Positions 40,329-45,250 of a DNA stretch of 64,000 nucleotides are shown piece by piece; the stretch's first letter is position 1, and each line of letters begins with the position of its first letter. The notes beneath the pieces were generated by a model. The model was not told the origin of the DNA and did not search any database. It saw only the letters and a list, made by a program, of their open reading frames with translations. This DNA is from Chloroflexota bacterium (GTDB lineage Bacteria > Chloroflexota > Anaerolineae > Aggregatilineales > Phototrophicaceae). The position numbers and the translations under genes are program-made. Location: NCBI GenBank assembly GCA_026709625.1, contig JAPOSR010000041.1:19732-83731 (forward strand), in the 5' to 3' direction.

Positions 40329-41003
40329 ATGGCGAGTTTTCGCTTTCGTTTGCGTCAGCGCTATTGGGCATGGGCAGCGCCGCATCAAATCCGCGGTTAC
40401 TTGCGGTCGGCTGCAGAGCCACGTCTGCAGATCGGCACGGGACCCAATCCCTTGCCCGGCTGGCTGAATACCACATTGACGCCTTTCCAGCCCGGCACAA
40501 TCTTCCTGGATGCCAGCCGCCCTTTCCCTATGCCCGATGCCAGCTTTGCGCTCATCTTCGGCGAGCATGTCATCGAGCATCTGGAATTTCACGAAGCCGC
40601 GCTGATGCTGGGCGAGTGCTTTCGCGCGCTGCGGTCTGGCGGCATATTGCGGGTGGCCACGCCCGACCTGGCGCAGATTATCGCGCTATATACATGCCCG
40701 GAAGCGCCGCCACAGCGCGCCTACATCCGCTGGATCATGGATACCTTCCGTTCGCAGATCGGCGAATACAACCCTGCCCATGCCATCAACCAGTCTTTTC
40801 ATGGCTGGCGGCACAAGTTTATCTATGACGCCCCGACCTTGATTCAAGCGCTCGCGGCTGCGGGCTTCATCAGGATCGAACGTTGCGAGCCCGGCGAAAG
40901 CGGCGATGACCGGCTGCGTGGCATCGAGCAGCACGGCGACCTGGTGAGCAATGATGCCGCCATGCGCTATGAAACCATGGTCTATGAAGCGCGCAAGCCA
41001 TGA
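40329..41003 (+). CDS. SAM-dependent methyltransferase (COG4627-like)
   Basis: The class I methyltransferase fold begins with RLQIGTGPNPLPGWLNTTLTP, a pattern typical of COG4627-like proteins in which the usual Asp of ...GWxNxD is replaced. FPMPDASFALIFGEHVIEHLEFHEAALMLGECFRALRSGGILRVATPD follows as motif post-I to IV. 224 residues. Substrate is unknown. It lies 26 bases after the lipoprotein gene. Confidence 0.85.
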   Translation: MASFRFRLRQRYWAWAAPHQIRGYLRSAAEPRLQIGTGPNPLPGWLNTTLTPFQPGTIFLDASRPFPMPDASFALIFGEHVIEHLEFHEAALMLGECFRALRSGGILRVATPDLAQIIALYTCPEAPPQRAYIRWIMDTFRSQIGEYNPAHAINQSFHGWRHKFIYDAPTLIQALAAAGFIRIERCEPGESGDDRLRGIEQHGDLVSNDAAMRYETMVYEARKP

Positions 41004-41100: not shown

Positions 41101-41412
41101 ATGCCTATTTATACCTATCGCCGTGAGGACGGCACGACATTTGATATCCGCCAGCGCTTTGGCGACAGCCCGCTGCAAACTTGTCCAGACACCCGGCAGG
41201 CGGTCCAGCGCGTGATCCAGCCAGCCGGCATCATCTTCAAGGGCAGCGGCTTTTATGTCAACGACAACAATAAAGCCAAGAACCCTGCCAAACCAGCCGC
41301 CAATGGCAATGGCAAATCCGCGGACAAGGACGCAAAAACCGCCACAAAAGCCGAAAGCAAACAAGCCAGCCAATCGCCCAGCCAAGACAAGGCTCCAGCA
41401 GCGGCGAAGTAA
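41101..41412 (+). CDS. FmdB-like regulatory protein without zinc-ribbon cysteines
   Basis: The start MPIYTYRREDGTTFDIRQRF and the segment GIIFKGSGFYVNDNN match the FmdB/CxxC_CXXC_SSSS family. The usual cysteines have mostly been lost: CxxCG is RREDG, and only one Cys of the second pair remains (TCPDT). The C-terminal half is a Lys/Ala/Asn-rich, probably disordered tail. 103 residues. It could still bind nucleic acid or protein, but it should not bind zinc in the standard way. Confidence 0.75.
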   Translation: MPIYTYRREDGTTFDIRQRFGDSPLQTCPDTRQAVQRVIQPAGIIFKGSGFYVNDNNKAKNPAKPAANGNGKSADKDAKTATKAESKQASQSPSQDKAPAAAK

Positions 41413-41440: not shown

Positions 41441-42538
41441 ATGCGACTGTATTTTGTGCGACATGGCATTGCCGAAGACCTGACAAGCAGCGACTTCATG
41501 CGCGAGCTGACCCCGCGTGGCGAACGGCGCGTCAAGACATCTGCCGCGGTGATGCGAGCGCTCGGCATCCAGCCACAGCGCATCTATAGCAGCCCTCGTC
41601 TGCGCGCGCGGCAAACCGCCGACATCATCGCGCAGGCGCTGGGTATGGGTGTAGAGCTGGCCGATTCGGTCAATTTCGGCTTTGACCTGGCTGATGCGCG
41701 CCGCCTGAGCGCCGATTGCGACGCCGAAATCATGTTTGTCGGGCACAACCCAGATATGAGCGAGATCGTCAGCGAGCTGACTGGCGCGGCGGTCTCCATG
41801 AAAAAGGGCGGCTTGGCGCGAGTGGACGCGTTTGCTGCAGAGGCGGGCGCTGGCGAGTTGGTCTGGCTGGTCGCGCCCAAAGTGTTTGACGCGCTGGCAG
41901 ACAACAAACAGACGGGCATTGTCCCTGCCCCAGCGCAGAAATTGCCCGATGTGAATGGCGGCTTGCACGAGTTGATTCGCCAGCGCTGGAGCCCGGTCGG
42001 CTTTGACCGCGAGCGCCCAATCAAGCGCGAAACCCTGCTGGGCATATTGGAAGCGGCGCGTTGGGCGGCATCGTCCAGCAACTTGCAGCCGTGGCGGTTT
42101 ATCGTGGCTCGCCGCGAAGACGAAGCGCAATTCGCCAAGCTGCTGTTGACGCTGCGCGAAGGCAATATCGCCTGGGCGCAACATGCCGCCGCGCTGATGG
42201 TCGCCTGCTCGCGCAAGTTCCGCAAAGAGACTGTGCCAAACCGACACGCCGGGCATGATCTGGGCTTGGCTGTGGGGCAGATGGTCTTGCAGGCGCTTTC
42301 GCAAGGCGTCTATGTCCACCAGATGGGCGGCTTCTTCCCAGAAAAAGCCCGCCAGCTCTATGCCATTCCCGACGACTTTGACCCGTACACCTGCATCGCC
42401 TTTGGGTATCGCGCCACCGAGCTTGGCCACTTGGCTGAGGCGCAGCGGGGACGAGATGCCTCGCCACGCGAACGTCAACCGCTTGACGAGATGGTCTTTG
42501 GCGGCGGCTGGGCGCAGGCAGCCAATTTCCTCGACTAG
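41441..42538 (+). CDS. fused SixA-type phosphohistidine phosphatase and nitroreductase
   Basis: Residues 1 to about 160 are a SixA-like histidine phosphatase with the RHG motif (MRLYFVRHGIAED), YSSPRLRARQTADII and FVGHNPDMSEIV. Residues about 175-365 are a nitroreductase-type flavoprotein (RQRWSPVGFDRERPIKRETLLGILEAARWAASSSNLQPWRFIVA, and DLGLAVGQMVLQALSQGVYVHQMGGF). The reading frame is continuous with no internal stop. ATG 41441 has AGGA eight bases upstream; the ORF track start at 41255 lies in the preceding gene. How the two activities relate is unknown. Confidence 0.85.
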   Translation: MRLYFVRHGIAEDLTSSDFMRELTPRGERRVKTSAAVMRALGIQPQRIYSSPRLRARQTADIIAQALGMGVELADSVNFGFDLADARRLSADCDAEIMFVGHNPDMSEIVSELTGAAVSMKKGGLARVDAFAAEAGAGELVWLVAPKVFDALADNKQTGIVPAPAQKLPDVNGGLHELIRQRWSPVGFDRERPIKRETLLGILEAARWAASSSNLQPWRFIVARREDEAQFAKLLLTLREGNIAWAQHAAALMVACSRKFRKETVPNRHAGHDLGLAVGQMVLQALSQGVYVHQMGGFFPEKARQLYAIPDDFDPYTCIAFGYRATELGHLAEAQRGRDASPRERQPLDEMVFGGGWAQAANFLD

Positions 42539-42556: not shown

Positions 42557-43594
42557 ATGGCGCGGTATTTACTCACAGGCGGCGCGGGTTTTCTGGGCAT
42601 CAACCTGTGCAGGCATCTGCTGGCGCGCGGGCACGAAGTTGTTTCGCTGGATATCGCCGACTTTGATTATCCCGAGCGCGACCAAATCCGCGAGGTCTGC
42701 GGCGACATCCGCGACCGCGCCACTGTCGACCAAGCTATGCAAGGCGCAGATATTGTCGTGCATTGCGCGGCCGCCCTGCCCCTGTATACACAGGACGAGA
42801 TCATGAGCACCGACGTCGATGGCACGCGCGCGGTCCTCGAATCGGCGCGGCAGCACGGCGTCGAGCGCTTGATTCACATCTCGTCCACAGCGGTGTATGG
42901 CATTCCTGATCATCATCCTCTGCATGAAGACGATCCGCGCATCGGCGTCGGCGCCTATGGCGAGGCGAAGATCCTGGCGGAAGATATTTGCTTCGCCGAA
43001 CGCGAGCAGGGCTTGGTCGTACCGGTAATCCGCCCCAAGTCTTTCGTCGGTCCCGAGCGGCTGGGCGTGTTCGCCCTGCTGTATGACTGGGCGAAAGATG
43101 GTCGCGGCTTCCCTTTGCTGGGCGACGGGCGCAACCGCTATCAACTGCTGGATGTCGCCGACCTGTGCGAGGCAATCAGCCTGTGCGCCGAGCTGGGAGC
43201 CGAGCGCGTCAACGATACGTTCAATATCGGCGCAAAAGATTTCGCCACGATGGGCGAAGACTACCAAGCTGTGCTGGATTATGCCGGCTTTGGCAAGCGC
43301 ATCACCCACCTGCCCGCCACCCCGGCGATTTGGCTGCTGCGCGCGCTGGAGATGTTAAATCTGTCGCCGCTGTATACATGGGTCTATGAAACAGCCGCCA
43401 AAGACTCTTTTGTGTCGATCGAGCGAGCAGAGGCGCAGTTGGGCTTTGCGCCGCAATACAGCAACCAGGACGCCCTGCTGCGCAACTTCCAGTGGTATCT
43501 GGACAATCTGGCGGCTTTTGAAGACAGCGCCGGCATCTCGCACCGAGTCCCTTGGCGGCAGGGAGCCTTGCAGCTGGCCAAGCTGTTTTTCTAG
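42557..43594 (+). CDS. NAD-dependent epimerase/dehydratase (extended SDR)
   Basis: The Rossmann motif is YLLTGGAGFLGINLCRHLL at the N-terminus. The catalytic Ser and YxxxK are seen as HISSTAVYG and YGEAK. The family includes sugar-nucleotide epimerases and sterol/cholesterol dehydrogenase-like enzymes; the substrate is not assignable. 345 residues. It starts 18 bases after the SixA-nitroreductase gene. A short palindrome (AGCTGGCCAGCT) follows its stop. Confidence 0.9.
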   Translation: MARYLLTGGAGFLGINLCRHLLARGHEVVSLDIADFDYPERDQIREVCGDIRDRATVDQAMQGADIVVHCAAALPLYTQDEIMSTDVDGTRAVLESARQHGVERLIHISSTAVYGIPDHHPLHEDDPRIGVGAYGEAKILAEDICFAEREQGLVVPVIRPKSFVGPERLGVFALLYDWAKDGRGFPLLGDGRNRYQLLDVADLCEAISLCAELGAERVNDTFNIGAKDFATMGEDYQAVLDYAGFGKRITHLPATPAIWLLRALEMLNLSPLYTWVYETAAKDSFVSIERAEAQLGFAPQYSNQDALLRNFQWYLDNLAAFEDSAGISHRVPWRQGALQLAKLFF

Positions 43595-43699: not shown

Positions 43700-45250
43700 A
43701 TGGACGATATCAAGCGTGGCGGCATCGCTGTCATCGACTATGGATCGCAGACGACGCAGTTGATCGCCCGGCGCATCCGCGAGCTGGGTGTCTATGCCGA
43801 AATCTTCGCGCATGATGCAGCGCCAGAAGCAATCGAGCGGCGCCAGCCGGCTGGCTATATCTTGTCCGGCGGGCCCAGCAGCGTCTATGCGCCCGGCGCG
43901 CCGACCTTGTCGCCGTTTGTGTTGGAGCATGGCAAGCCGGTCCTGGGCATCTGCTATGGCATGCAGCTGCTGACGGCGGCATTGGGCGGGACAGTGGCGG
44001 CTTCTGCCAGCCGGGAATATGGACCTGCCCAGATCCAGCAGCGCGCTCACAGTCGCCTCTTGGCTGATACAGCGGCGGCGCAGCCGGTCTGGATGTCGCA
44101 TGGCGATCGCATCGAAGAACTGCCAGATGGTTTTCAGACGCTGGCCTATACCGCCAATTCGCCCTACGCGGCGATCGGCGATGTGGCGCGGCACCGCTAT
44201 GGCTTGCAATTTCATCCCGAAGTCGGGCACAGTCCACAAGGTAGCCAGATGCTGGGCAATTTCGTCTTTGGCATCTGCGGCTGCCAAGCCAAATGGAGCG
44301 CGGCCGCCTTCATTGATGAGGCTGTCGCGCGCATCCAGACACAGGTCGGCGATGAACGCGTGCTGCTGGCATTAAGCGGTGGAGTCGACTCGGCTGTTGC
44401 TGGGGCTTTGATCCAACGGGCGATCGGCAAGCGATTAACCTGCGTGTTTGTCGACAATGGCTTGCTGCGGCAGGGCGAAGCGGCGCAGGTCCTGCGCGTC
44501 TTTCGCAAAGAGCGCGGCATGCGGCTTATCGCGGTGAATGCGGCGGAAGAATTTTTGCAGGCATTGGCTGGCATCACCGAGCCAGAAACCAAGCGCAAAA
44601 TCATCGGCGCGCAATTCATCGATGTGTTCTCGCGGCAAGCGCGGCAGCTGCGTGGTCTGCGATTTTTGGCGCAAGGCACGATCTATCCCGATGTCATCGA
44701 AAGCGCGGCGGCGGGAAAATCTGCTCGGACGATCAAATCTCATCACAATGTCGGCGGCTTGCCAGAGGACCTCGACTTTGACTTGGTAGAGCCGCTGCGC
44801 GATTGCTTCAAAGACGAGGTGCGCAGGGCCGGCGAGGCGCTGGGCCTGCCCAGCTCGATCGTGTGGCGGCAGCCTTTCCCCGGCCCCGGGTTGGCGATCC
44901 GCTGTCTGGGCGAGTTAAGCTGGCAGCGCCTCGAGACACTGCGTCGCGCCGATGCCATTTTCACCGGCGAGCTGGTGGCGGCTGGCTTGCTGCGCGGCGA
45001 GACTGCGCAATGCTTTGCGGTGCTGCTGCCAGTCAGAAGCGTCGGCGTGATGGGCGACAAGCGCAGTTATGAAGAGACACTGGCGCTGCGGGCGGTTGCG
45101 ACAGACGACTTCATGACCGCCGACTGGGCGCGCCTGCCCTATGACTTGCTGGCAAAAATTAGCGCGCGCATCGTCAACGAGGTGGCGGGCATCAATCGCG
45201 TTGTCTACGACATCACCAGCAAGCCGCCGGGCACGATAGAATGGGAATAG
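43700..45250 (+). CDS. guaA: GMP synthase (glutamine-hydrolysing)
   Basis: GuaA converts XMP to GMP. The class I glutamine amidotransferase domain has [11 protein letters not shown] with the nucleophilic Cys and [10 protein letters not shown] with the catalytic His. The ATP-pyrophosphatase domain has [15 protein letters not shown], and the C-terminal dimerisation domain ends with [14 protein letters not shown]. The 516 residues are normal. The following small ACT/RAM-like gene is in the same orientation. Confidence 0.97.

Follow-up and report, generated by a model that had tools for sequence, protein, structure and literature searches.

The gene described here, located in the window (the whole stretch of 64,000 nucleotides that was analysed), encodes a fusion protein, probably a bifunctional enzyme, with a new combination of domains of known kinds: a SixA phosphohistidine phosphatase is joined through a linker to an FMN nitroreductase. 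The full-length fusion, free of internal stops, is present in 33 of the 34 genomes of the genus, i.e. in the window genome and in 32 others, whose copies share 59-88% identity with the window protein. We lean, if only slightly, towards the reading that both domains keep their ancestral activities independently of each other and are yoked for co-production, judging from the sequences and from analogy with a related hybrid protein.

Architecture of the fused gene and constraint on its parts

The frame starts with ATG, ends with TAG and contains no internal stop codon, and the alignment of Met1 across all 34 fused rows speaks for the start at 41441. In the window protein, Pfam recognises His_Phos_1 at residues 3-74 (E 1.6e-9, above cut-off) and Nitroreductase (PF00881) at residues 179-323 (E 1.8e-18, 67.7 bits vs. 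a cut-off of 23.5). Among the NCBIfam models, the SixA equivalog TIGR00249 covers residues 1-146 with 78.1 bits (cut-off 74.5), and no nitroreductase equivalog is at or above its cut-off for this protein. These matches, together with the uninterrupted frame, confirm the initial annotation in its description of one continuous frame that holds an RHG histidine phosphatase and a flavin nitroreductase domain.

Table 1. Features of the fusion locus, in order of their position in the window
Feature	Position	Strand	Remarks
SAM methyltransferase	40329..41003	+	PF08241; upstream neighbour in most loci of the genus
fmdB-type zinc-ribbon gene	41101..41412	+	PF09723; 28 nt upstream; conserved immediate upstream neighbour of the fusion
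Fused sixA-ntr gene	41441..42538	+	SixA phosphohistidine phosphatase - linker - FMN nitroreductase; 365 aa
SixA domain	41441..41896	+	about residues 1-152; TIGR00249, alignment with 1ujb and 3f2i
Interdomain linker	41897..41971	+	about residues 153-177; length and sequence both variable
Nitroreductase domain	41972..42535	+	residues 178-365; PF00881, FMN-binding signature R182, S184, N214-x-QPW, R345
Extended-SDR NAD-dependent epimerase/dehydratase	42557..43594	+	PF01370; 18 nt downstream of the fusion
guaA, GMP synthase	43700..45250	+	PF00958/PF00117; gene after the epimerase

The SixA domain possesses the RHG motif with the nucleophile His8, as well as a second Arg and a second His (R55 and H102). 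R7, H8, R55 and H102 align with the active-site positions of E. coli SixA (1ujb) and are invariant across the 68 fused and split SixA sequences. Likewise, the nitroreductase domain shows no substitution at R182, S184, N214, Q216, P217 or R345 in any of 66 fused and split sequences, and the FMN-binding core as a whole (RxS near the start, NxQPW and the C-terminal Arg) is kept in 63-66 of these 66. Both domains are probably active, as far as their sequences allow this to be judged.

Pairs of fused proteins share on average 70% identity in the SixA domain and 67% in the nitroreductase domain, but 40%, with gaps, in the linker. Estimates of dN/dS (Nei-Gojobori, five close relatives) range from 0.12 to 0.32 in the SixA domain and from 0.10 to 0.21 in the nitroreductase domain, and lie above either domain in the linker (0.24-0.46). 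The comparison of the domains with the linker in dN/dS and identity therefore indicates that both domains are under purifying selection. The linker itself is short and variable, with a single Lys as its sole conserved position in the fused set, and looks like a flexible tether between the domains. AlphaFold, run with an input of two sequences, gave a mean pLDDT of 34 for the fused protein.

Distribution, reality and origin of the fusion

The sole unfused genome of the genus, G033, carries its SixA and nitroreductase genes on different contigs, and in all other genera of the family the two are likewise separate genes. Among 64 other genomes of the family (E<=1e-25), 55 possess SixA, 15 the nitroreductase and 14 both, most of the genomes with SixA thus being devoid of this nitroreductase; in these 14 the two genes never lie within 100 kb of each other on one contig. 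The fused protein was found in none of 120 other genomes of the order (E<=1e-42), nowhere among 400 genomes sampled from the phylum (E<=1e-30) and in none of the plasmids searched, in searches that would overlook independent fusions assembled from SixA or nitroreductase lines that are more remote. One scan of genome contigs returned a single locus of the same fused kind, and a literature search for a SixA-nitroreductase fusion found nothing, which is weak evidence for novelty. Apart from the fused copy its genome contains no SixA match, and the genus therefore apparently lacks a free SixA.

The window genome is a draft of 80 contigs, in which a sequencing or assembly error could in principle have united two adjacent genes. 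However, the same stop-free, full-length frame is shared by 32 other genomes, with conserved gene order, and a junction error is thereby excluded for practical purposes; its probability is practically nil. Separate genes in close relatives, which the initial annotation had regarded as speaking against the fusion, do indeed exist in G033 and in other genera, but they are no proof of an error and instead date the fusion.

In the trees of both domains the fused rows and the split genes of G033 form one clade with a bootstrap value of 100. The fused rows fall on one side of a branch in either tree, with moderate support in the nitroreductase tree (92/81) and weak support in the SixA tree (65/53). 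The simplest reading, which is moderately supported by these trees, is a single fusion event on the stem lineage of the genus, once G033 had branched off: the sole SixA gene would have been joined in frame to a nitroreductase of the subfamily that is found upstream of the SDR epimerase in some relatives. Alternatively, the split genes of G033 may be the product of a later fission instead of the ancestral state, as the branching of G033 relative to the fused rows is weakly resolved in the SixA tree. However, the SixA of G033 has an extra C-terminal tail that is unlike the linker, and no phosphatase sequence precedes its nitroreductase in frame; there is therefore no sequence trace of a fission.

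Gene neighbourhood

Throughout the genus the locus has an operon-like appearance, with the order methyltransferase, fmdB, fusion, epimerase and guaA on one strand. The spacing is mostly 21-51 nt upstream of the fusion and, in most genomes, 0-67 nt between the fusion and the epimerase, which follows directly in most genomes of the genus. In eight genus genomes the epimerase has no match (E<=1e-90); the fusion is kept in these and guaA is the next recognised gene. The epimerase, an extended SDR, is present as a highly conserved single copy in 82 of 98 family genomes, mostly without a nitroreductase neighbour outside the genus, and the copy in the window reaches the cut-off of no NCBIfam equivalog. 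In three genomes of two other genera (G046, G137 and G118) the orthologous epimerase is immediately preceded by a stand-alone nitroreductase gene, and the reductase-epimerase pair may therefore be older than the fusion. The idea that guaA was an ancestral neighbour is unsupported: in eight other family genomes none of the other locus genes lies within about 1.5 kb of guaA.

Two further observations were made on the stand-alone relatives of the domains. A stand-alone SixA is situated near a gene for a GalE-type UDP-glucose 4-epimerase in six family genomes (L044, L048, L051, L059, L062 and L063). In G118 (L093 1995-3644) a protein with a TIR domain and a right-handed, NosD-like beta-helix, possibly a defence-type effector, is encoded in the vicinity of the genes for the stand-alone nitroreductase and an RNase HI.

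The initial annotation had gone further than the domain identities and had proposed that both domains act on, or are controlled by, a common partner. The domain identities hold, as does a real, conserved fusion under selection, but the gene context lends no support to the shared partner, as the separate genes are never neighbours in the 14 family genomes that possess both.

Function of the two halves

The solved structures nearest to the phosphatase part are 3f2i and E. coli SixA (1ujb). The N-terminal 150 residues of the fusion match E. coli SixA in size, motif order and the residues R7-H8, R55 and H102; however, the E. coli protein is stand-alone and 161 residues long, whereas the domain is here fused to a flavoenzyme, and the NPr and ArcB-type Hpt partners known from E. 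coli are missing from the fused genomes tested. For the nitroreductase part, the best solved match is the NAD(P)H-flavin oxidoreductase 2fre (presumably from Agrobacterium), which aligns with nearly the whole domain (E 2.7e-25) but is a stand-alone protein. Next follows the C-terminal half of 4eo3, the peroxiredoxin-nitroreductase hybrid of Thermotoga maritima (E 2.4e-20). This hybrid is likewise a natural N-terminal fusion onto a related nitroreductase, although its N-terminal partner is a peroxiredoxin and not a phosphatase, and its domains are reported to function independently (PMC8395237). Mycobacterial MutT1 offers a parallel from the phosphatase side, a branch-1 histidine phosphatase sharing one protein with another enzyme. 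Its partner, however, is a Nudix domain, through which MutT1 is reported to act on Ndk (PMC12934123), while the window protein scores 12.7 bits on the MutT1 model and has no Pfam match to a Nudix domain. An arrangement reminiscent of MutT1 is found in G033 (L039 8001-9058), where SixA and a Nudix hydrolase are encoded by two genes that share a few bases.

Reported targets of E. coli SixA are NPr, PfkA and, in vitro, ArcB, to which Ndk has been added most recently (PMC12934123). Among the five fused genomes tested, HPr/NPr and Hpt domains were found in none (E<=0.001), and Ndk and Pfk in all five. NPr/HPr is also missing from other SixA-bearing genomes (PMC7948535), and the presence of NPr/HPr or Hpt is not strictly a defining feature of SixA. 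Given this repertoire, with HPr/NPr and Hpt absent and Ndk and Pfk present, Ndk is the most economical SixA substrate and Pfk the second; the most likely substrates of the SixA half would thus be Ndk and possibly Pfk.

In the independent mode of action that we favour, the C-terminal domain would form the usual FMN nitroreductase homodimer and use NAD(P)H to reduce a quinone-, flavin- or nitro-like acceptor. The N-terminal SixA, one per chain and held on a flexible tether, would dephosphorylate protein histidines via phospho-His8. The domains would work independently, and their fusion would fix co-expression and stoichiometry. The argument for independence draws on the linker and on one precedent, the Thermotoga hybrid, whose independently functioning domains tip the balance towards it.

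Two other readings of the fusion have to be weighed against independent domains. On the one hand, the protein might be a coupled enzyme, in which SixA is gated by the FMN domain acting as a sensor of redox conditions (NAD(P)H or electron acceptors), with histidine dephosphorylation, e.g. of Ndk, tracking the redox or energy state. One frame and two conserved active sites persist across the genus, and the retention of this frame in 33 genomes without re-splitting could mean that the coupling itself matters; in addition, Ndk and Pfk, enzymes of energy metabolism reported as SixA targets, are present. Yet the linker is short and variable, with conservation limited to one Lys, the related peroxiredoxin-nitroreductase hybrid shows no coupling, and outside the genus the separate genes have no neighbour link, for which reasons we consider a coupled enzyme unlikely. 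Its specific form, a redox-gated phosphohistidine phosphatase in which the action of SixA on Ndk (or Pfk) is controlled by the FMN domain according to NAD(P)H/acceptor status, appears decidedly improbable; if true, NTP pools or a phosphate-wasting Ndk cycle would track the redox state of the cell. We know of no earlier direct tie of flavin redox sensing to phosphohistidine signalling.

On the other hand, the two domains might serve the same pathway, the phosphatase having a small phosphorylated metabolite as its substrate and the reductase catalysing an adjacent step, together with the SDR epimerase downstream. Branch 1 histidine phosphatases include small-molecule phosphatases, and both the stand-alone nitroreductase that directly precedes the epimerase orthologue in G046, G137 and G118 and the SixA genes near GalE-type genes at six loci agree with such a pathway. 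Against it, the N-terminal domain scores above the SixA equivalog cut-off and far below the small-molecule models, and the epimerase stands away from the nitroreductase in most family genomes and is absent from eight fused ones; a shared pathway is accordingly doubtful. Independent domains are therefore the interpretation that we infer in preference to both redox gating and a shared small-molecule pathway.

A pathway that does join the two superfamilies, of which the initial annotation had recognised none, is the synthesis of the cobalamin lower ligand (dimethylbenzimidazole/alpha-ribazole), in which BluB, of the nitroreductase superfamily, and CobC, of the histidine phosphatase superfamily, both act; it is the only textbook link between them to our knowledge. 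The fusion might accordingly unite a BluB-like nitroreductase and a CobC-like alpha-ribazole phosphatase, and thus two steps, in one protein. However, the protein reaches 25.8 bits on the BluB model TIGR02476 (cut-off 150) and 24.3 bits on the CobC model TIGR03162 (cut-off 162.9), and CobT, the enzyme between BluB and CobC, is found in 0/33 fused genomes and only in the unfused G033. With scores so far below cut-off and CobT missing, this explanation is ruled out, having hardly any chance of being correct.

SixA is widespread, but few of its targets are known outside E. coli. Two questions, namely whether SixA serves in general to control Ndk and whether such control is linked to redox state, can be asked cleanly in this genus, whose only SixA is fused to a flavoenzyme and which apparently lacks HPr/NPr and Hpt but possesses Ndk and Pfk. 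Should the two halves prove independent, the protein would be one more convenience fusion onto a nitroreductase.

A further nitroreductase of the window genome belongs to an F420 biosynthesis cluster (G000 contig C35, L004 143-3113), which comprises, on one strand, an npdG-type F420 reductase, CofE, a stand-alone nitroreductase similar to the C-terminal domain of FbiB, and CofD. Mycobacterial FbiB unites the CofE and nitroreductase parts in one protein, whereas the two are encoded by separate genes in the window genome.
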